NCBI RefSeq assembly: GCF_004376845.1
Contig: NZ_SNUW01000005.1
Span: 186,001 to 250,000 of the forward strand
DNA: 64,000 nt
Direction of reading: 5' to 3'
Source of the DNA: Psychromonas algarum
Lineage (GTDB): Bacteria; Pseudomonadota; Gammaproteobacteria; Enterobacterales; Psychromonadaceae
Shown: positions 7,105 to 19,378 of the stretch, one piece after another
How positions within the stretch are numbered: the stretch's first letter is position 1
How the letters are laid out: each line of letters opens with the position of its first letter
The notes under the pieces: model-generated
Seen by the model: only the letters and a program-made list of their open reading frames with translations
What the model was told of the DNA's origin: nothing
Database searches by the model: none
Position numbers and translations under genes: made by a program

Positions 7105-7339
7105 ATGGATCAAAAGCAATTAGAAGTGTTTGCTCGTGAAGCCGCTAAAACATTAAAAACAGAAAAAGACCTCACTAACTTTAGCCAGATGCTAACCAAG
7201 ATAACCGTTGAAGCTGCCTTAAATGCAGAGTTAGACGACCATCTTCTACTCTAAGCACCGTAAATCATCTTCTACTAACAGTCGTAACGGCACATCAACC
7301 AAAACTATTATCACTGATGATGGGGCGTTTGAACTTGAC
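7105..7339 (+). pseudogene. IS256-family transposase, N-terminal remnant with frameshift
   Basis: Opens MDQKQLEVFAREAAKTLK and continues through the family-typical TVEAALNAELDDHL. It then hits a stop at 7252 because of a frameshift. The adjacent frame resumes with YSKHRKSSSTNSRNG and ends near ITDDGAFELD. Only about 78 of the roughly 400 residues normal for IS256 transposases are left. A Shine-Dalgarno-like AAAAGGA precedes the ATG. Confidence 0.75.
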
Positions 7340-7355
7340 CAGAATATTTTATTTG

Positions 7356-7430
7356 GTAGCAGTAAATTGAGACATATTTTTTACACCACTGACGAATAGT
7401 TTCATAGCTAACACCAACCTCACTAGCTGA
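7356..7430 (-). pseudogene. IS6-family-like transposase fragment
   Basis: The minus strand reads SASEVGVSYETIRQWCKKY, which resembles the helix-turn-helix region of IS6/IS26 transposases (typical form GVDVSYETIRRW). Only about 25 codons survive and the flanks contain stops. The assignment rests on this one motif. Confidence 0.5.
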
Positions 7431-7713: not shown

Positions 7714-10629
7714 TTAACTGACAACCGCTTTTAATCTCGCTAACGGTTTCATCTCTTCACTTGCAATAATAGCTTGATAATCGCTATTTTTAGCGATCAA
7801 CTGATAACGTCCATCGTTTAATTTTTTGACATCACGTAATAGATACTGATCATCGCCCGTCATTTCATGATTCTCAATGACTATGGTTTGTCCTTGCAAA
7901 GAGCCTGCGCTATCCGGTGTAATGAGCTCTAATAAAAGCAAGTCACCATCTTGTATTGGATGTTTACCACCGTTCATAGAATGACCTGTTGCGTACGCTA
8001 AAAAATGTCTCTTGGGATCTAAATGTCCATGTCCTTCTGGCGCGATCTTATATTCAACTTGTGAAGAATCTCCAGTTTTAAAGTGACCACATGCTATTTT
8101 TATATCAGGATAGAAGCCGAGTTGTATTACATTATTTTCGACATAGCTTTCGACATAGCTATTTGCTTCAATAAGCGTTTCAGATAAGTCTTCAATTGCC
8201 GTTTTAACAGTATCTCGATGTCTATATGCTAATAGTCTAAAATCCAGTAATTCCTGCACCCAATGTTCAAAGTAGTCTTTATCATTTTCAGCAATGTGAA
8301 TATTAGCCACAAATTTATTATCGATAATGGAAAACCATGTTTTTGTGTTTTTATTGGCTGTTGCATAGGCTTTTATTGGATTACGTTTCCAGTAGCTAAG
8401 CCATACTTTACTATTCGCTTCACTCTGACGCTCTTTACTTGGTAACTCTGTTTCGAACAAATGAGGATAGCGTTTTAATACTCGATAGCTTTCAGCACTT
8501 AACGCTTCAAGTGAAGGTGGTTTTGCAAATCCATCTAATCGTAAAAATGCTTTCAACAAGATAGCTTTAAAGGATTTGGACATACTGGTTGTTTGTACTA
8601 CAGAGGTGATAAACGCTACATGATTATCTGATAGTTGATGAGTCATATTATGTTTTTCAACTTCAATAATAAGCTCAACCCAGCTACCATATTGCTTGTT
8701 TACTTTCTTTAAATCACTATACGCTAAGAAGAACTCTGATGCTGTTGGCCTATGTCCAAGTTGTTCATAAAGTGTCTGATAATCTTCTAGAGCATTTGTA
8801 CGTTGTTGTTTAGCTAACACTTCCCAAAATTCAGTTATTTCAAGGTCATAATTAATATAACAACCTTCACTCAAAGTAGGATCTTTGTATTTAGCTAAGG
8901 TTTCTTGTACTGACCCACTCCCCAATAAAGCAGCAGGCTTATTTAAAAATGAATGATGATTTCCGATGAAGTCTAAAACTACAAGGTGTGATTTATTTTC
9001 AAATAACCGAAGACCACGCCCTAATTGCTGTAAAAATAAAATTTTAGAATCACTAGGACGTAACATTAGAATCGTATCGATAGCAGGTAAGTCGGTTCCT
9101 TCATTAAACAGATCAACAGAAAAGAGAATTTCTAGTTCTCCACTCGCTAGTTGATTAAGGGCATCATTACGGCGAACGGTAGATTGACTATGTACCGATG
9201 CAGCTTTGATCCCTTTTTTTATAAAACTATCCGCCATAAAGTCAGCATGCTTTGTTGATATACAAAAAGCGAGAGTCGTTGCTTGCTTATGCTTTTCCCA
9301 ATGATGGAGAATATGCAAAAACCTTTTTTGAGTCGCAAATTGGTGTTCGAGGTGATCGGGATCGAATCGGCCATTACGCCATGGAATAGCCGTATAATCG
9401 ACACTACCATCCCAAATACCGTAATAATGGAAAGGCACTAATATTTGGTCATCAATCCCTTGCGTTAAATTACGCTCGTAGACTAAATTATTTTCACATA
9501 AACCCAATATATCTGCTTGATCCGTTCTTTCAGGTGTTGCCGTTAATCCGAGTAAAAATTTTGGCTCAAAATAGGTAAGTAAATTTTGATAAATCGATGC
9601 ACTGGCATGGTGAAATTCATCGACAATGACATAATCAAAATGATTTTTTGTAAACTGATTTAAATGTGTATTTTTGCCAATTGTCTGTACAGAAGCAAAA
9701 AGCAATTCAGCTTCTTGATCTTTAACATTGGCCTTATAAAACCCAGTTTTTTTAGTTGGTAATAATTGTGCAAACGTTCTTTGAGCTTGTATTAAAATCT
9801 CTTCTCGGTGAGCAACAAATAAAACTCTTTTTGCATTCACCTGTTTTACATCAAAAGCAGACAACCATGTTTTACCCATGCCTGTTGCTAAAACAACTAA
9901 ACCTCTGAGGTAGCCTTCTTCACGTGTTATCTGTAAAGCCTGTAACGCCTCTAATTGAATGTTACTAGGCGTTGCGCGTTCGGTAGGCTCTAGTTGAACA
10001 CTTGGAGCATTGATATTAACAAATTTCATCACCCGTCTACGTTGCAAGTAATCGGAGATCCATTCATTAGTCAAAGTCTTTACTTTAGAATGGGAGAAAA
10101 TAGCAGAAAATGCCTCTCGAATAGCATTAAAAGTGATTGCCTCTTTAGAGTCTATAGGTAAGTTAAAATCATGACGATAGCACCATTCATGAGCGTTAGT
10201 TAATGCACTTTTACTAATATTGTTTGAACCAATAAAAGCACAACCCTCAGTCACTTCCGCAGTCGATGAACTCACTTTAGTCTTTACAAAAATATAAGAC
10301 TTCATGTGGAAACTTTGTTGATTATCGCTTTGATATATACGAATATCAGCCCCTCTATCAACAAGTGGCATGAGTTCTCTTAGAGCGATAGGATCTGTAA
10401 TATCAAGATAATCAGAGGTTAATATTTTTAGCTGACAATTATTAACGAGAGCATCTTTTAAAGACTCAAATAATAAAGTTAAACCACTTCTTTGAATGAA
10501 AGAAACAGTTATTTCAATTTCGTCTGCACGATTGATAGCGTGTATTAATTTAGGTAATAGTGGGTCTTCATCACCCGTTGTCAGTTGTGAATCCCCGAGT
10601 AGTAGGCTTGATGAAAGAATTTTATTCAT
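7714..10629 (-). CDS. PLD nuclease-SF2 helicase with C-terminal S24 (LexA/UmuD-like) autoprotease domain
   Basis: A 971-residue multidomain protein. Residues 1-200 form a phospholipase D-like nuclease domain (HMK at 108-110, GSNN at 134-137). An SF2 helicase follows: Walker A ATGMGKT (248-254), DEFHH (337-341), TATP (363-366) and QLGRGLR (535-541). The middle region is of the DUF3427/helicase-associated type. The last 130 residues look like a peptidase S24 domain: cleavage-type dipeptide Cys847-Gly848, GHSM with Ser884, PIQDGDLLLLE, RDVKKL with Lys935 or Lys936, and a NSDY tail resembling the LexA NSEF. Cys-to-Ser spacing is 37 residues, as against 35 in LexA and 36 in UmuD. The gene overlaps the upstream methyltransferase gene by 8 bases. 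Defence or damage response is the likely role (inference). Confidence 0.85.
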   Translation of the reverse strand: MNKILSSSLLLGDSQLTTGDEDPLLPKLIHAINRADEIEITVSFIQRSGLTLLFESLKDALVNNCQLKILTSDYLDITDPIALRELMPLVDRGADIRIYQSDNQQSFHMKSYIFVKTKVSSSTAEVTEGCAFIGSNNISKSALTNAHEWCYRHDFNLPIDSKEAITFNAIREAFSAIFSHSKVKTLTNEWISDYLQRRRVMKFVNINAPSVQLEPTERATPSNIQLEALQALQITREEGYLRGLVVLATGMGKTWLSAFDVKQVNAKRVLFVAHREEILIQAQRTFAQLLPTKKTGFYKANVKDQEAELLFASVQTIGKNTHLNQFTKNHFDYVIVDEFHHASASIYQNLLTYFEPKFLLGLTATPERTDQADILGLCENNLVYERNLTQGIDDQILVPFHYYGIWDGSVDYTAIPWRNGRFDPDHLEHQFATQKRFLHILHHWEKHKQATTLAFCISTKHADFMADSFIKKGIKAASVHSQSTVRRNDALNQLASGELEILFSVDLFNEGTDLPAIDTILMLRPSDSKILFLQQLGRGLRLFENKSHLVVLDFIGNHHSFLNKPAALLGSGSVQETLAKYKDPTLSEGCYINYDLEITEFWEVLAKQQRTNALEDYQTLYEQLGHRPTASEFFLAYSDLKKVNKQYGSWVELIIEVEKHNMTHQLSDNHVAFITSVVQTTSMSKSFKAILLKAFLRLDGFAKPPSLEALSAESYRVLKRYPHLFETELPSKERQSEANSKVWLSYWKRNPIKAYATANKNTKTWFSIIDNKFVANIHIAENDKDYFEHWVQELLDFRLLAYRHRDTVKTAIEDLSETLIEANSYVESYVENNVIQLGFYPDIKIACGHFKTGDSSQVEYKIAPEGHGHLDPKRHFLAYATGHSMNGGKHPIQDGDLLLLELITPDSAGSLQGQTIVIENHEMTGDDQYLLRDVKKLNDGRYQLIAKNSDYQAIIASEEMKPLARLKAVVS

Positions 10630-11221
10630 TTATAACGTCCTTGCGTAAAATCACATTCAACCATTGTTCGGATTCACGCCCTTCTCGCAGATCTCCCGTT
10701 CTCCATTGTTTAACAATGGCAATAGGTTTCCCCGTAATATACTGCCCAAAACTGACTTCATCTACATTGGTAAATACCCTACCATTTCGAATAACTTCTT
10801 CTCGTCCTAATTTAAAAGAGCAATAAAAAACGCCTGACTCTTTTAATAGTGAAACAAATTTCGATATTACATTGGATAACTCATCTTCTGGGACATGTAA
10901 TAAAGAAGCACAAGCCCAAATCCCATCGAATTTAATGCTACTTTCAAAGGTTTGAAATAAGGCTTGTTGCACTGGTTGCTTTATTAATTTGGAAGCTAAA
11001 GATGCTAACTCTTTACTTGCATCAAATGCACATATTTCATATCCATGTTCAATGAAGAATTTACTATCTCGACCAGCACCACATCCAGCGTCCAGTATTA
11101 AACCGTTATTTTTAATTAAAGGTAAAAATTCATCATATAAAGCAGTCATATCAATATCGACAGTTGCGTCATAAAATGATTTTGCATTCGAGGAATAATA
11201 TTGAGCGTTGAGAGTTTTCAT
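10622..11221 (-). CDS. Class I SAM-dependent methyltransferase, operon partner of the helicase
   Basis: A 199-residue Rossmann-fold methyltransferase. Motif I is ILDAGCGAGRDSKFF (about residues 42-56), motif II ends in ICAFDAS, and a later motif reads FDGIWACASLLHVP. No target-recognition domain or DNA-methyltransferase DPPY/NPPY motif is visible. The substrate may therefore be a small molecule, a protein or an RNA. The family resembles TehB/UbiE-type enzymes only in a general way. Its end overlaps the start of the helicase gene (8 bases), which implies translational coupling and a joint function. No LexA-type operator is visible in the AT-rich DNA upstream. Confidence 0.82.
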   Translation of the reverse strand: MKTLNAQYYSSNAKSFYDATVDIDMTALYDEFLPLIKNNGLILDAGCGAGRDSKFFIEHGYEICAFDASKELASLASKLIKQPVQQALFQTFESSIKFDGIWACASLLHVPEDELSNVISKFVSLLKESGVFYCSFKLGREEVIRNGRVFTNVDEVSFGQYITGKPIAIVKQWRTGDLREGRESEQWLNVILRKDVINE

Positions 11222-11581: not shown

Positions 11582-11658
<77 letters not shown>

Positions 11659-11688
11659 AGATATTTTAATTCGTATTTTAAAATCAAG

Positions 11689-11758
11689 GGTCAGAACCCT
11701 CTGGTCCAACTCTTATCCAAAACACCGGAGATGCGCTACCAAGCTGCGCTAATCACCG
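11689..11758 (-). pseudogene. Decayed tRNA-Pro, copy A
   Basis: The 5' half (acceptor strand, D-arm and start of the anticodon stem, positions 11729-11758) is identical to the intact tRNA-Pro. The anticodon loop is then broken by an insertion and the T-arm is lost. The remaining AAGAGTTGGACCAGAGGGTT is shared with the second decayed copy near 12260. Confidence 0.75.
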
Positions 11759-11819
11759 AAATTGTTAATATCTTTATTAGTCTTGGGTTGAAAATAACTA
11801 ATTGATATTGTTGTTTAAA

Positions 11820-11904
11820 TGGTGCGGAAAGAGAGACTTGAACTCTCACACCTTGCGATACTAGAACCTAAATCTAGCGCGTCTACCAATTCCGCCACTT
11901 CCGC
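11820..11904 (-). tRNA. tRNA-Leu (anticodon UAG)
   Basis: 85 nt with encoded CCA and a long variable arm. The anticodon loop TTTAGGT sits between CTAGA and TCTAG, giving UAG. The position matches leuT in the enterobacterial argX-hisR-leuT-proM order. Confidence 0.95.
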
Positions 11905-11941
11905 ATCTATTTAAACTTTTACTCATTTTACTTTTAAAAAA

Positions 11942-12018
11942 TGGGGCGAATGACGGGGTTTGAACCCGCGACAACCGGAATCACAATCCGGGGCTCTACC
12001 AACTGAGCTACATCCGCC
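11942..12018 (-). tRNA. tRNA-His (anticodon GUG)
   Basis: 77 nt including the extra 5' G(-1), which pairs with the discriminator C as expected for tRNA-His. The anticodon loop TTGTGAT lies between CCGGA and TCCGG. CCA is encoded. Confidence 0.95.
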
Positions 12019-12035
12019 ACTATACTTTTTAAAAA

Positions 12036-12112
12036 TGGTACGCCCTACAGGATTCGAACCTGTGGCCTACGGCTTAGAAGGCCGTTGCTCTATCCAGCTG
12101 AGCTAAGGGCGC
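12036..12112 (-). tRNA. tRNA-Arg (anticodon UCU)
   Basis: 77 nt with encoded CCA. The anticodon loop CTTCTAA between CGGC and GCCG gives UCU. The enterobacterial operon carries an Arg tRNA with CCG at this place, so the isoacceptor differs. Confidence 0.92.
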
Positions 12113-12159
12113 AAAAGCAGGACTTATTACTTACAATGACAAATCACTGTTTTTAAATG

Positions 12160-12236
<77 letters not shown>

Positions 12237-13236: not shown

Positions 13237-13944
13237 TTAATTATTAATGCTAATCATAACTGCATCTGTTCGCCAATATTCAAATTCACAATCAATGATG
13301 TCATTGTGTTGGTTATAATTAACACGGCATATTTTTAATACTTGTTGCCCAGTACGTATGTTTAATGCTTGTGCAACATGTTCTGGTGCAGCAGTAGGGA
13401 TAAATTCAAAATTAGAGCGATTCGTTTTGAATCCGTACTTTGTTGCATAAAGTATGGTCAGGGATTGCGCTAAATCTTCCGATAAAATATCCGGAAAGCA
13501 ATGACTAATAAGGCAGTTTTCAACAAACAATACCGCACGACCATCAATATAGCGTAATCGCTCAATAACATGAATGGGTGTCAACTCTGACAATGCTAAA
13601 AGTGTAGCAATAATGCTAGGTGCCATCATGCTTTTTACTCCCAATAACTGAGTTTTAGCGGTACGTTGTTGATCCCTTATCATTTGATGAAAATGACAGC
13701 GTGATAAGGGGTTATATTTAATTCTAGGTGGAGAAACAAACCATCCTCTTCGATCTTCTCGATAAATTAAACCTTCCACCTCCAATGAATCCAATGCACT
13801 TTTTACACTAATTCTAGTGATTGAAAAAAGCTCACTTAATTCACGCTCAGAAGGAATTTTTTGTAAAGGTAATAATAACTTCCCACTAATTTGATCTCTT
13901 AAAACTGCTTTGATGTCTTTCGAAACGTCCTTTGCCACGCCCAT
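13237..13944 (-). CDS. GntR-family transcriptional regulator, HutC/UTRA subfamily
   Basis: A 235-residue repressor-type protein. Residues about 10-75 form a GntR winged helix-turn-helix (PSERELSELFSITRISVKSALDSLEVEGLIYREDRRGWFV). The C-terminal 150 residues look like a UTRA ligand-binding domain, which in this subfamily senses small sugars, phosphonates or phospho-compounds. It is divergent from the transporter/phosphatase operon that starts at 14156. A TGGTCTAGTCCA palindrome lies two bases upstream of its own start codon and a perfect version lies in front of the operon. Autoregulation together with control of the operon is therefore likely. The inducer is probably a substrate or product of the operon (inference). 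Confidence 0.88.
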   Translation of the reverse strand: MGVAKDVSKDIKAVLRDQISGKLLLPLQKIPSERELSELFSITRISVKSALDSLEVEGLIYREDRRGWFVSPPRIKYNPLSRCHFHQMIRDQQRTAKTQLLGVKSMMAPSIIATLLALSELTPIHVIERLRYIDGRAVLFVENCLISHCFPDILSEDLAQSLTILYATKYGFKTNRSNFEFIPTAAPEHVAQALNIRTGQQVLKICRVNYNQHNDIIDCEFEYWRTDAVMISINN

Positions 13945-13945
13945 A

Positions 13946-13957
13946 TGGTCTAGTCCA
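13946..13957. promoter_or_regulatory. Operator-like palindrome in front of the GntR gene
   Basis: TGGTCTAGTCCA is a near-perfect palindrome (10 of 12 positions). It closely resembles the TGGTCTAGACCA core bound by HutC-subfamily regulators such as DasR. It abuts the regulator start codon. Confidence 0.65.
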
Positions 13958-14115
13958 ATTAAATTGCATTCACTTTCTATATTTAAACTTCAAAACTGAA
14001 AATAAGCAATCCATTCACCTGTTAAATATTAAGCATTCAATTTATTGGTCATAAAAACGACTTATTTCCGTAAGTAAATTGTAATACTTCTCAGATAGCA
14101 TAAAAAAATAACTGC

Positions 14116-14127
14116 TGGACTAGTCCA
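14116..14127. promoter_or_regulatory. Operator-like palindrome in front of the phospho-compound operon
   Basis: TGGACTAGTCCA is a perfect 12-bp palindrome 28 bases upstream of the binding-protein start. It is nearly the same as the site at 13946. Its position just upstream of the ribosome binding site suits repression. Confidence 0.7.
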
Positions 14128-14155
14128 AAAACCAACCATGAAGGATGAAAATATA

Positions 14156-15205
14156 ATGAAAGTATTTACAACAACGAGCACCTTACTTGCACTATCACTC
14201 ACCCATAATGTCTATGCGACAGAATCAATGGAATCACTGATTAAAGCGGCTCAAAAAGAGGGGCAAGTCTACAGTGTCGGTATGCCAGACAGTTGGGCAA
14301 ATTGGAAAGACACATGGGTTGACCTTAAAGAAAAATATAATATTAGCCACCAAGATACTGATATGAGCTCTGCGCAAGAAATTGCAAAATTTGAAGCTGA
14401 AAAGAATAATGCGACGGCAGATATTGGTGATGTCGGTTTTGCATTTGCACGCGTCGCAACCAGCAAGGGTGTGACACAACCTTATAAGCCGACTACGTGG
14501 AACGATGTTCCTGATTGGGCAAAAGATAAAGATGGTCATTGGGCTTTAGCTTATACTGGAACTATCTCTTTTATTTCTAATAACAACCTCGTAAAAAATG
14601 CACCAAAAACATGGGCTGATTTACTTGAGGGTGATTACAAAGTCACCATTGGTGATGTCGGTGTTGCTTCTCAAGCCAATAATGCCGTATTAGCAGCCGC
14701 TTTTGCTAATGGCGGCGATGAGTCAAATTTAAAACCTGCGATTCAATTTTTTGAAAAATTATCTAAACAAGGCCGCCTTTCTTACGCGGATCCAAGTTTA
14801 GCTAATTTAGAAAAAGGTGAAGTAGAAGTTGCGGTGATGTGGGACTTTAATGCGCTTAATTACCGAGACAAAATCGACCGCACTCGCTTTACGGTTGGTA
14901 TTCCACAAGATGGTTCAGTTACTTCAGGTTACACCACTATTATTAACAAATACGCCAAAAATCCTAATGCAGCAAAGCTTGCGCGTGAATATATTTTCAG
15001 TGATTCAGGACAAATTAATTTAGCAAACGGCTATGCACGCCCGATTCGTACCAACGTAACGTTACCGGTTGAAACACAAGCAAAACTGATCCCAAATGAT
15101 CAATATAAAGCCACTCACCCAATCACAGATTTTAAGGCATGGGAAAAATCTGCGCGCAGACTACCACGAGCATGGCAAGAAAACGTGTTAATCCACCAAC
15201 AATAA
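14156..15205 (+). CDS. ABC transporter substrate-binding protein
   Basis: About 349 residues. A signal peptide (MKVFTTTSTLLALSLTHNVYA) precedes the mature periplasmic protein. The fold looks like family 1 solute-binding proteins of the AfuA/PotD/PhnS type: a DIGDVGFAFA stretch, the hinge region WADLLEGDYKVTIGDVG, GEVEVAVMWDFNALNY and GYTTIINKYAKNPNAAKLAREYIFSDSGQ. An upstream in-frame ATG at 14138 exists, but 14156 begins the signal peptide and has AAGGA ten bases before it. It is the first gene of a six-gene operon under the GntR-site control. The ligand is probably a phosphorylated or phosphonate compound, judged only from its neighbours. Confidence 0.85.
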   Translation: MKVFTTTSTLLALSLTHNVYATESMESLIKAAQKEGQVYSVGMPDSWANWKDTWVDLKEKYNISHQDTDMSSAQEIAKFEAEKNNATADIGDVGFAFARVATSKGVTQPYKPTTWNDVPDWAKDKDGHWALAYTGTISFISNNNLVKNAPKTWADLLEGDYKVTIGDVGVASQANNAVLAAAFANGGDESNLKPAIQFFEKLSKQGRLSYADPSLANLEKGEVEVAVMWDFNALNYRDKIDRTRFTVGIPQDGSVTSGYTTIINKYAKNPNAAKLAREYIFSDSGQINLANGYARPIRTNVTLPVETQAKLIPNDQYKATHPITDFKAWEKSARRLPRAWQENVLIHQQ

Positions 15206-15217
15206 TTGAGATTTAAT

Positions 15218-16021
15218 ATGAATAATAAGGTGATCCTTGTTGTTCTTGATGGTTTAAATCTAACAGTAGCCCAACACTGTATGGGCTACTTAACTGGATT
15301 AATAGAGCACAAGAAAGCAAGTCAATACGCTTTACAGAGTGAATTACCGTCACTATCTCGCCCTTTATACGAATGTATATTAACCGGCAACTCTCCGGTA
15401 AATAGTGGCATTGTCCACAATCATGTCACACGTAATTCGCATTTAGAATCTGTTTTTAGTTTGGCAAATAAACAGGGTAAAACTACAGCGGCAGCTGCCT
15501 ACCACTGGGTGAGTGAGCTCTATAATATTTCACCTTACAATGCACAAAGAGACCGCCATACCCACAATGAGAAGCTGAATATTCAACATGGCGTATTTTA
15601 TCATTGGGATCATTACCCTGATGAGGCATTATTTCTTGATGGTGAACACCTACGTCATCAATATGATCCCGACTTCCTATTGATCCATCCGATGAATATT
15701 GATGATACAGGACACAAGCACGGATTAGATTCAGCTGAATATCGTAACTCAGTGCGTCAAGCCGATATTATTTTATCGGAATTTCTACCGCAGTGGATAA
15801 GTGCTGGCTACCAAATAGTGATCACCAGCGATCATGGTATGAATAACGATAAATCCCACGGTGGCACACTCAAAGAAGAGCGTGAAGTTCCACTCTATTT
15901 AATTGGTGATCAGTTCACTCATAAAGCAAATGCGATAAAACAAACGGAGCTTTGCGGCATGATCTGTGAGTTACTGGGGTTAGAACATTCGAAACCCTTT
16001 ATTAAGGAGTGCTTAAAGTGA
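15218..16021 (+). CDS. Cytoplasmic alkaline-phosphatase-superfamily phosphodiesterase/phosphatase
   Basis: About 267 residues, no signal peptide. Metal-binding motifs of the alkaline phosphatase/nucleotide pyrophosphatase superfamily are visible in order: VVLDGLN near the start, a nucleophile region LPSLSRPLYECILTG with Ser in place of the usual Thr, HPMNIDDTGHKHG, TSDHGMN and a late SHGG. Related enzymes split phosphodiesters, phosphonoacetate or phosphomonoesters. The TTG at 15206 is in frame but the ATG at 15218 starts the conserved strand. The gene ends in a GTGA overlap with the permease gene. Its place inside a transporter operon suggests that it acts on the imported compound. Confidence 0.78.
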   Translation: MNNKVILVVLDGLNLTVAQHCMGYLTGLIEHKKASQYALQSELPSLSRPLYECILTGNSPVNSGIVHNHVTRNSHLESVFSLANKQGKTTAAAAYHWVSELYNISPYNAQRDRHTHNEKLNIQHGVFYHWDHYPDEALFLDGEHLRHQYDPDFLLIHPMNIDDTGHKHGLDSAEYRNSVRQADIILSEFLPQWISAGYQIVITSDHGMNNDKSHGGTLKEEREVPLYLIGDQFTHKANAIKQTELCGMICELLGLEHSKPFIKECLK

Positions 16022-16914
16022 ATACCGACAGGATCGTGCAACAAGATCAGCGTAAGCAAGATATAAAAAAAACGAGAGTTTTTTCAAAATTAGCGAATTA
16101 TAAGCCCATATTATGGTTTATTCCCTTTGCATTTTTTTTTTACTTGTTCCAAATCGCCCCAATGATATGGGTATTCATTAACAGTTTTGTTTATGAAGGA
16201 AAGTGGTCATTGGAAAATTACCACGAGATTTTTAATTCATCTTTCATATTACAAAGCTTTCATAACAGCGTATGGATAAGTTTTTGGTCCAGCTTGATTG
16301 GGTTATTAATCGCCGCATTATTAGTTTCATCTCTACGACATCTCAACAGCCGTATCAAAGAAGCGATCATCGCTTTTACTAATATGAGCAGTAACTTTGC
16401 AGGGGTGCCCTTAGCCTTTGCTTTTATCATTATCTTGGGCACCAATGGTGCAGTCACTCTGCTATTAAAACAGTGGGGGATCATTGAGGACTTTAACCTT
16501 TATAGCCGTTGGGGTTTACTCACACTGTATATCTACTTTCAAATACCCTTGGGTGCATTATTACTTTATCCCGCTTTTGATGCACTTAAAAAAGATGCCT
16601 ATGAAGCCGCAGCATTGCTCGGTGCTAGTTCATTCAGGTACTGGATAAAAATAGGCTTTCCTATTCTTTCTCCGGCACTACTTGGGACTTTCATTATTTT
16701 GTTCGCTAATGCGATTGGTGCTTATGCAAGCGTATACGCACTGACTTCAGGAAATTACAATATGGTGACCATCCGAGTAGCTAGTCTTGTATCTGGCGAT
16801 CTCTTTTTAGAGCCCAACTTAGCAGCAGCAATCTCCGTAGTTTTGATGCTACTACTTGCCTTTATTACTGCTATTAATCAGTGGTTAATTTCACGGAGTT
16901 ATTATGGAAAATAG
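16018..16914 (+). CDS. ABC transporter permease 1
   Basis: About 298 residues with six predicted membrane segments and the binding-protein-dependent permease signature EAAALLGASSFRYWIKIGFPIL, which contacts the ATPase. I chose GTG at 16018. It overlaps the preceding stop as GTGA and has AAGGAG eight bases upstream; the in-frame GTG at 16009 lies on that ribosome binding site. The resemblance is to spermidine/putrescine and 2-aminoethylphosphonate-type permeases (PotB/PhnU class). It works with the second permease and the ATPase that follow. Confidence 0.85.
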   Translation: MNTDRIVQQDQRKQDIKKTRVFSKLANYKPILWFIPFAFFFYLFQIAPMIWVFINSFVYEGKWSLENYHEIFNSSFILQSFHNSVWISFWSSLIGLLIAALLVSSLRHLNSRIKEAIIAFTNMSSNFAGVPLAFAFIIILGTNGAVTLLLKQWGIIEDFNLYSRWGLLTLYIYFQIPLGALLLYPAFDALKKDAYEAAALLGASSFRYWIKIGFPILSPALLGTFIILFANAIGAYASVYALTSGNYNMVTIRVASLVSGDLFLEPNLAAAISVVLMLLLAFITAINQWLISRSYYGK

Positions 16915-17692
16915 TAAACAGTTTGTTCATAAAGGCGTTGTATACAGCATTACAACACTCTTATTGATACCAATATTAGCAACGTTTATCTATTCGTTAT
17001 CATCAAGTTGGGGAGCGACTATTCTGCCCGATGGTTTCACCTTTAAATGGTATAGCAGCCTATTAACGGATCCTCGTTTTCTGGATGCATTCGGGCGTTC
17101 ATTGTTTATCTGTATTGCGTCACTGCTATTAGCGACCCTATTAGTATTGCCGATGATTTTTGTCGTTTTTTATTATTACCCTAAACTCGACAAAGTGATG
17201 AATCTGCTGATTTTATTGCCCTTTGCAGTGCCACCAGTGGTCTCTTCAGTGGGGCTATTACAATTATACGCAAACAGTTCTTTTCAACTGGTCGGCACGC
17301 CATGGATATTAATTGGTACGTATTTCACCATCGCTCTTCCTTTTATGTACCGTGCGATTGCCAATAGCTTTACTGCAATAAACTTAAAAGACTTAATCGA
17401 TGCGGCTCACCTGTTAGGGGCAACCACCACAAAAGCATTTTTATTAATCATTTTACCGAACTTAAAAAAAGGGTTACTAGCTTCCCTATTCTTATCATTT
17501 TCGTTTCTATTAGGTGAATTTGTTTTTGCCAACATCCTGGTCGGAACACGTTACGAAACCTTACAAATCTATCTTTATAATATGCGCCAAACCAGTGGTC
17601 ACTTTACATCAGCACTGGTCATGACCTACTTTGCCTTCATCTTCTTATCTACTTGGCTGGCAAGTCGTTTAACCAGAGGAAATAATCAATGA
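16904..17692 (+). CDS. ABC transporter permease 2
   Basis: 262 residues with six membrane segments and the EAA-type loop DAAHLLGATTTKAFLLIILP. The start overlaps the first permease gene by 11 bases. It pairs with permease 1 to form the heterodimeric channel, as in PotC/PhnV-type systems. A segment LLPFAVPPVVSSVGLLQLY is typical of this group. Confidence 0.85.
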   Translation: MENSKQFVHKGVVYSITTLLLIPILATFIYSLSSSWGATILPDGFTFKWYSSLLTDPRFLDAFGRSLFICIASLLLATLLVLPMIFVVFYYYPKLDKVMNLLILLPFAVPPVVSSVGLLQLYANSSFQLVGTPWILIGTYFTIALPFMYRAIANSFTAINLKDLIDAAHLLGATTTKAFLLIILPNLKKGLLASLFLSFSFLLGEFVFANILVGTRYETLQIYLYNMRQTSGHFTSALVMTYFAFIFLSTWLASRLTRGNNQ

Positions 17693-18711
17693 GTTACGTA
17701 AAAATAAATAGTCTTAGCAAACGTTTTGGTGATGTCACAGTTTTTGAAGATATCGAATTTAATATTGAGAAAGGTGAATTTGTTACCTTACTTGGCCCAA
17801 GTGGTTGCGGAAAATCTACCCTGCTTCGAACACTAGCAGGTCTAGATAAAGCTAATGCAGGACAAATATGCGTTGATGGGGTCGATATCACTAATGTATC
17901 GCCTCAACACCGTGAAATCGGCATGGTTTTTCAATCCTATGCCTTATTTCCAAATATGACAGTCGAAGACAATGTGTTTTTTGGATTAAAGATGAAAGGG
18001 AGCAGCAAAAAAGAAGCCAAAGTAAACCTACAAAAAATGCTGACACTTGTTGAGCTAAACGGGAAAGAGAAATTTTACCCACACGAACTATCAGGTGGTC
18101 AACGTCAGCGTGTTGCACTAGCAAGAGCCTTAATCGTAAAACCAAGAATATTGCTGCTTGATGAACCCCTATCGGCGCTTGATGCCAAAATACGCAAAAA
18201 TCTGCGACAACAAATTTTGGATATTCAAAAAGAGTTGAACCTTACCACTATCTTTGTGACACATGACCAAGAAGAAGCGATGTTGATGTCCGATAGAATT
18301 TTCTTAATGAACAAAGGAGAGATAATACAACAGGGTAATCCAGTAGAAATATATACCAAGCCTGCTAATGAATTTGTCGCTAGCTTTATGGGCAACTATA
18401 ACCTAATTTCAGGTGAAACTGCGAAACACTGGTTTAACATCAATACTACTAGCCCAAAAGTCGCTATCCGTCCAGAGTCTATTTATATCAAAGAGGCTGG
18501 CCGGCACTATGCTGACCATATATCATCGCCAAAATCTGCGAAGATCATCTCTCACCAATTACTTGGTAATATCATTCGCTATAACCTAAAAGTAGAAAAT
18601 GAAGTCTTAACCGTGGATTTATTAAACCGCTCCTCTGAGCGATTGATGCCAAAAGGCAGCGAGATAGAACTATTATTCAACTTAAACGAAATTCAACCAG
18701 TGGGAACTTAA
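17689..18711 (+). CDS. ABC transporter ATP-binding protein
   Basis: 340 residues. Walker A GPSGCGKST, signature LSGGQRQRVALARAL, Walker B ILLLDEPLSALDAKIR and the H-loop VTHDQEEA are all intact. The extra C-terminal domain after residue 240 (VAIRPESIYIKEAG) is a TOBE-like regulatory region found in PotA/FbpC/UgpC-type ATPases. Overlap with the preceding permease is ATGA. It energises import of the unknown compound. Confidence 0.9.
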   Translation: MSYVKINSLSKRFGDVTVFEDIEFNIEKGEFVTLLGPSGCGKSTLLRTLAGLDKANAGQICVDGVDITNVSPQHREIGMVFQSYALFPNMTVEDNVFFGLKMKGSSKKEAKVNLQKMLTLVELNGKEKFYPHELSGGQRQRVALARALIVKPRILLLDEPLSALDAKIRKNLRQQILDIQKELNLTTIFVTHDQEEAMLMSDRIFLMNKGEIIQQGNPVEIYTKPANEFVASFMGNYNLISGETAKHWFNINTTSPKVAIRPESIYIKEAGRHYADHISSPKSAKIISHQLLGNIIRYNLKVENEVLTVDLLNRSSERLMPKGSEIELLFNLNEIQPVGT

Positions 18712-18712
18712 C

Positions 18713-19378
18713 ATGCTAAAACCTCTTTACGTATTTGATATGGATGACACCTTAGTCAATGGCGATTGCTCCATGTTATGGAATGTTTTTTTGGTAGAAA
18801 AAGGCATTATCAAGGATCCCAATTTTATTGAAAAAGATCGCGCAATGATGCTTGAATATGCACAAGGGGAAATGAATATGGAAGAGTATCTAACCTTCTC
18901 CTTAGCACCTATCATGGACGTTTCCGCAACCCAAATTGATGAGTTGGTCGATGAGTTTGTTACAAAATCCATATTACCTAACGTATTTTCTGAAGCAAAA
19001 ACATTAATTTTTCAGCTAAAAGAAAATGAAGTCCCTTTACTGATTATTTCAGCTACAGTCTCTTTTATCGTTAAAAAGGTGGCAAAGCAACTTGGTATTG
19101 AACATGCAATTGGTATCGATCTATTGATGAAAAATAATTGCTATTCAAGCCAAGTTGACGGTGTAGCAAGTTATCGAGAAGGCAAAGTTCAGCGCTTAAA
19201 AAAATGGATTGAGATAAATACAATAGAATTTCAAAGCATTCATTTTTACACTGATTCAATCAACGACTTACCATTGTGTCTTTACGCAGATCATACTTAT
19301 TTAATTAATCCTTGTGAGCAATTAATAGAGCAAAAGAAAAATCATGATCATTGGCAAGTATACAAATGGGGAAAGTAG
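18713..19378 (+). CDS. HAD-IB family phosphatase
   Basis: 221 residues. Motif I is FDMDDTLVNGD, motif II LLIISATV, and the late acidic motif YTDSINDLPL. This matches the HAD superfamily subclass IB, which includes phosphoserine phosphatase-like enzymes. It starts one base after the ATPase gene stop and ends the operon. A natural reading is removal of phosphate from a product of the imported compound. The substrate is unknown. Confidence 0.82.
   Translation: MLKPLYVFDMDDTLVNGDCSMLWNVFLVEKGIIKDPNFIEKDRAMMLEYAQGEMNMEEYLTFSLAPIMDVSATQIDELVDEFVTKSILPNVFSEAKTLIFQLKENEVPLLIISATVSFIVKKVAKQLGIEHAIGIDLLMKNNCYSSQVDGVASYREGKVQRLKKWIEINTIEFQSIHFYTDSINDLPLCLYADHTYLINPCEQLIEQKKNHDHWQVYKWGK

Follow-up and report, generated by a model that had tools for sequence, protein, structure and literature searches.

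The window analysed here, a stretch of 64,000 nucleotides of Psychromonas algarum (contig NZ_SNUW01000005.1, positions 186,001 to 250,000), encodes a nuclease-helicase whose C-terminus is a genuine S24 (LexA/UmuD-type) domain and not a chance match. Together with a small SAM-dependent methyltransferase (MTase), relatives of this domain recur across at least three nuclease types, the MTase and the S24 domain being the constant parts and the nuclease the variable one. In this S24 family the catalytic lysine is replaced throughout by arginine. Our tentative reading, held at somewhat less than even confidence, is that the MTase and the Arg-type, presumably protease-deficient S24 domain make up a control cassette, independent of the nuclease, within an undescribed modular defence system. 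Attached to PLD-translocases, HNH nucleases or other SF2 restriction helicases, the cassette would gate or target them via the retained cleavage-site segment, possibly by docking on RecA-ssDNA filaments.

Domain architecture of the nuclease-helicase

The features of the two genes are as follows:
7714..10629 (-): open reading frame of the nuclease-helicase, 971 aa (PLD nuclease, SF2 helicase, helical coupler, S24)
10180..10548 (-): PLD-family nuclease domain, residues 28-150 (PF13091, 36.7 bits; conserved HxK and GSxN motifs)
9007..9969 (-): SF2 helicase/translocase domains, residues 221-541 (PF04851 and PF00271; motifs ATGMGKT, DEFH, TATP and QLGRGLR)
8140..8952 (-): coupler region, mostly helical, residues about 560-830 (AlphaFold model)
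7714..8100 (-): S24 (LexA/UmuD-type) domain, residues 844-971 (Pfam, profile and AlphaFold fold match)
8080..8100 (-): KIACGHF segment, residues 844-850, with the would-be cleavage site Cys847-Gly848 (conservation)
7978..7980 (-): Ser884, equivalent of LexA Ser119 (Ser in 27/27)
7834..7836 (-): Arg932, which takes the place of the catalytic lysine Lys156 of LexA (hhalign; Arg in 26/26)
7822..7824 (-): Lys936, in the column of LexA Lys160, four residues past the dyad position (Lys in 26/26)
10622..11221 (-): SAM-dependent MTase, 199 aa, Methyltransf_25 type (open reading frame and Pfam)

LexA-type domains are known as self-destructing switches of the SOS response. Pfam finds PLD nuclease, SF2 helicase and Peptidase_S24 domains in this order in the 971-aa protein, and the S24 match (residues 844-958, 30.0 bits, E 4e-7) lies above the Pfam cut-off of 23.3 bits. 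A phmmer search of the PDB with the S24 domain alone returned only noise, and a profile of 26 relatives was required to retrieve UmuD (E 3e-4). The AlphaFold model of the domain (pLDDT 83, pTM 0.81) gave an S24 fold as well: its first 35 matches in the PDB are all LexA, UmuD or lambda CI (best E 5e-6), and for this reason we regard the assignment as secure. A LexA/UmuD-type tail on a PLD-helicase had been proposed in an earlier note made from the DNA letters, and it is borne out by these matches. The motifs on which that proposal was built (Cys847-Gly848, G-H-S884-M, the DGD motif and the N-S-D-Y tail) are all present in the sequence, positions 7714-8091 correspond exactly to residues 847-971, and the arithmetic that gave a Cys-to-Ser spacing of 37 and a fragment of 124 residues is right. 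With UmuD, LexA and lambda CI the domain thus shares the fold, the serine and the NSDY-like tail, with a Cys-Gly cleavage-site motif as in UmuD, but it is attached to a nuclease, whereas the S24 domains of those proteins are attached to a repressor or to a polymerase subunit.

The rest of the protein resembles a known, 5mC-dependent type IV restriction enzyme. PADLOC calls it mREase_IV (type IV, SauUSI-like; E 6.5e-89), and its nearest solved structure is that of SauUSI (7clg, E 9.5e-89, residues 20-674), which consists of PLD, ATPase, helical coupler (618-805) and SRA reader (806-953) domains (PMC7913695). The PLD nuclease, SF2 translocase and helical coupler occur in identical order in both proteins. 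SauUSI, however, is a single polypeptide that ends in the SRA reader and carries no S24 domain (PMC7913695), while the window nuclease is paired with an MTase and ends in S24, without a DUF3427 or SRA match in Pfam. Its coupler region is modelled as almost entirely helical (pLDDT 80) and found no match in a fold search of the PDB at E<0.001. We considered whether residues 553-838 might conceal an SRA reader and ruled this out, as the AlphaFold model is almost wholly helical there. In some relatives (L110 and L122, for example) the second half of DUF3427, which we take as the SRA part, comes after the S24 domain. Because of this order the S24 domain appears to have been inserted between the coupler and the reader, and to stand alone at the reader's position in the window form. 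Placed where SauUSI has its methyl-DNA reader, it probably gates or targets the nuclease.

The active site of the S24 domain

The earlier note took the domain for an intact autoprotease with its catalytic lysine at Lys935/936, and here the alignments disagree. In hhalign the catalytic lysines of LexA (Lys156) and UmuD (Lys97) pair with Arg932 (QYLLR932DVKK936L against EVTVK156RL), and Lys936 pairs with the LexA residue four positions beyond Lys156. Arginine occupies the Arg932 column in all 26 aligned domains that reach it and in two further relatives (28/28), and Lys936 is likewise constant (26/26 domains reaching the column), while position 935 is variable, with Lys in only 4. As controls from the same bacterial group, ordinary S24 proteins (LexA, UmuD-like and repressor-like, counted where they align at the lysine column) have Lys in 59 of 59 cases and Arg in none. 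Because Arg932 is constant in the family and Lys is universal in these controls, the Ser/Lys dyad of the window S24 family is not intact, and the change from Lys to Arg is fixed in, and specific to, this family. Compared with LexA, UmuD and lambda CI, there is also a 2-residue insertion after the serine, and the distance from Ser to the dyad position is 11 residues longer (48 against 37, using the Arg932 column), so that the insertion of about 14 residues suggested before shrinks to 11 in the proper column.

The expectation that homologues keep Cys-Gly, Ser and Lys therefore holds for the first two elements and fails for the dyad lysine. Ser884, Cys847 and Gly848 are each constant in 27/27 aligned domains, as are Ala846 and Phe850, and Lys889 is kept in 26 of the 27. 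Conservation in the domain peaks at KIACGHF (rank 1-2 of 135 seven-residue windows), and the domain has 30 invariant columns in 26 sequences with a median pairwise identity of about 55%. Since the cleavage segment is the most conserved part, and the serine and an always-Arg substitute are retained along with it, the domain is, judging from its conservation, not vestigial. The central puzzle of the locus is that the nucleophile and the cleavage site are retained and the general base is swapped.

A second S24 subfamily (S24b) occurs on similar proteins. In the window's genus, two PLD-helicase-DUF3427 proteins (L141:2520-5972, minus strand, and L142:3794-7183, plus strand) have an S24b C-terminus; the same subfamily is found on other helicases (L190-L192, of which L191 is an SLFN-g3 helicase by scan) and on a restriction-helicase-like protein (L194). 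Like the window protein, these are helicase or restriction proteins with a C-terminal S24 domain, but S24b is a separate subfamily with an intact dyad: Ala-Gly, Ser (in GESM, GHSM or GKSM) and the T[IV]K motif are retained in 7/7. In L141 and L142 no MTase lies directly beside the S24b gene. S24b-tailed helicases may be true self-cleaving helicases, and on alignment grounds the notion of a helicase that cleaves off its own tail suits them better than the window protein, because they keep Ala-Gly, Ser and Lys. Small S24-like proteins of about 140 aa, with DGHSMQ or YGHSMQ and FICK motifs (L172, L173, L175, L176, L181, L186-L188), are common in one genus.

The methyltransferase partner and the exchange of nucleases

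The MTase gene lies directly upstream of the nuclease-helicase gene, and the two reading frames overlap by 8 nt. The nearest solved structure is that of the uncharacterised protein RPA2492 (3e23). The arrangement recalls type I, type III and ISP restriction-modification systems, in which an SF2 translocating nuclease also adjoins an MTase gene, but the window MTase is of the Methyltransf_25 type: neither the DNA-MTase motif IV (DPPY/NPPY) nor a Pro-Cys motif was seen in its alignment, and it has no recognisable target-recognition domain. An adjacent or fused MTase accompanies 25 of 27 S24-bearing nucleases as against 2 of 23 S24-less PLD-helicases (Fisher p about 1e-9, which is indicative only, as the loci are related). 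The two S24-bearing exceptions are a frame-split copy, with an MTase farther upstream, and a gene at a contig end; the two S24-less proteins with an MTase are one with a broken S24 reading frame and L140. In L122, L134 and L136 the MTase is fused to the nuclease, as its N-terminal part. The MTases beside L110, L137 and L138 score weaker (52-75 bits) and may not be orthologous, and that of L137 is encoded on the opposite strand.

The same MTase and S24 pair is found on a PLD-helicase, on an HNH nuclease and on a different SF2 helicase. It encloses an HNH nuclease in L133 (genome G547, 514 aa) and L197 (G1041, 520 aa), and a third locus of the same genus, L198 (G1063), encodes a PLD-helicase-S24 protein with an MTase, the protein being 92% identical to that of Pseudoalteromonas locus L028. 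Between the MTases of the HNH locus L133 and the PLD-type L028 the identity is 68%, whereas no other MTase in the comparison set exceeds 51% identity to that of L133. In L130 (G396) the pair flanks an SF2 helicase that lacks a PLD domain; the N-terminal nuclease of this protein is PD-(D/E)XK-like by eye only and had no match in Pfam or the PDB.

Several of these loci have features of their own. In two species of one genus the MTase and HNH-S24 genes (L133:2863-5007 and L197:2542-4697) lie beside a tatC-like gene, and a third species of this genus has an MTase with PLD-helicase-S24 at another site, a natural nuclease swap. At L142:560-2254 an MTase-like gene precedes the gene for an S24-less relative of the L133 HNH protein, next to NERD, NUDIX and S24b helicase genes. 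At L130/L131 (G396:C1, about 3105942 to 3143511) an insert of about 38 kb interrupts the S24 gene, whose N- and C-terminal halves lie on either side; the insert carries phage-like genes, Mu-like by appearance.

The S24-nuclease system is present in 23 of 346 genomes of the order, with a patchy distribution and several broken copies among the relatives. An ABC-3C system adjoins L028, and NERD and NUDIX genes adjoin L114. These neighbours, the patchy occurrence, the broken copies and the tRNA cluster beside the window copy (below) speak for a role in defence. A whole-protein scan of genome contigs returned one distant helicase only, and relatives of the S24 domain were found in neither viral contigs nor phage records. 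SOS transcriptional control via a LexA box was considered and is unsupported: the regions upstream of 26 loci contain 2 sites of the form CTG-N10-CAG against 2.2 expected, and lexA loci, used as a control, gave such sites. Around the module in the window, five tRNA genes (Pro, Leu, His, Arg, Pro) lie upstream (11582-12236), with degenerate partial tRNA-Pro-like copies between them, a cluster that is possibly an integration hotspot. Downstream (7105-7400) there is a short broken frame resembling the start of an IS256-type transposase, for which Pfam gave no confirmation. Positions 13237-19378 contain genes for a GntR-type regulator, a solute-binding protein, a phosphodiesterase-family enzyme and an ABC transporter, and resemble a phosphonate uptake/degradation operon.

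Possible roles of the S24 tail

That the locus is a two-gene, nuclease-exchangeable, restriction-like defence unit with an S24 tail that gates or targets the nuclease is a proposition for which we regard the case as almost evenly balanced. The small SAM-dependent MTase and the S24-ending nuclease, in the window a SauUSI-type PLD-SF2 DNA translocase, would act as one unit. The S24 domain would no longer be a normal Ser/Lys self-cleaving protease and would serve as a binding or gating switch instead, with the Ala-Cys-Gly (ACG) segment docked in the Ser/Arg cleft. A partner, either the MTase or a RecA-ssDNA filament, would release or lock this segment and thereby turn on or target the attached nuclease, which would then degrade the invading DNA. 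RecA-ssDNA filaments are the obvious candidate ligand, because each of LexA, UmuD and CI binds to such filaments (8gms, 8gmt, 8gmu); RecA is encoded in the window genome, and by analogy it is possible that the S24 domain docks on it. In line with the earlier note, which knew of no well-described system of this build, none was found in the searchable open-access papers: within that library and the wording used, we found no SauUSI-type or HNH nuclease described as carrying an S24 tail, and the papers on DUF3427, SauUSI, BREX and phosphorothioation do not mention LexA or S24.

A fairly unlikely alternative is that the S24 domain is a mere protein-protein adaptor, used for dimerisation or for docking of the MTase, in which the cleavage segment is no switch, and that the MTase licenses the nuclease by modifying the nuclease itself, a co-factor or a small molecule. 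The S24 domains of LexA and UmuD are indeed dimerisation domains, and the joint travel of MTase and S24 over three nuclease types, sometimes as a single polypeptide, agrees with such a role; it would, however, leave unexplained why conservation is strongest precisely at the cleavage segment and in the Ser/Arg cleft.

We consider it rather improbable that the tail is a self-cleaving protease still, with Ser884 acting together with Arg932 or, via a local shift, with Lys936 or Lys889, so that a slow or triggered cut at Cys847-Gly848 would free the nuclease-helicase from its tail. The constancy of the ACG segment, Ser and Arg could also mean an unusual but active protease. A most conserved segment that contains an invariant Ala-Cys-Gly, together with an invariant serine, is what one would expect if the site is cut; Lys936 is constant and Lys889 nearly so. 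A Lys-to-Arg mutant of LexA reportedly retained slight activity at high pH, which would favour this reading too, and a search for LexA K156R in the searchable papers returned nothing relevant. Against it stand the 59 alignable ordinary S24 proteins that keep Lys and never have Arg, the location of Lys936, which falls in the LexA Lys160 column, four residues farther down the strand, and the related S24 protein IrvR, whose Lys-to-Ala mutant is deficient in autocleavage (PMC7101444). Because the dyad lysine is always Arg, and because the cassette of MTase and tail occurs on at least three nucleases, we think it likelier that the tail serves for control than that it still works as a self-protease. 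Finally, an ordinary SauUSI-type restriction enzyme with an irrelevant, decaying LexA fragment is very improbable: the catalytic lysine is lost and the relative L140 lacks the S24 domain, but L140 could be a truncation, the domain keeps its invariant columns despite the divergence of the sequences, and it recurs on unrelated nucleases.

There is a real chance that the cassette of MTase and S24 is a new kind of control module. The occurrence of the Arg-type S24 domain on DNA-destroying enzymes, with a near-constant MTase and exchangeable nucleases, suggests that bacteria have put the LexA switch to new use, as a module that controls or targets defence nucleases. The window S24 family offers a natural test of whether a cleavage segment and an active-site cleft can signal without proteolysis, for which the S24b sister group, with its dyad intact on other helicases, provides a ready comparison.
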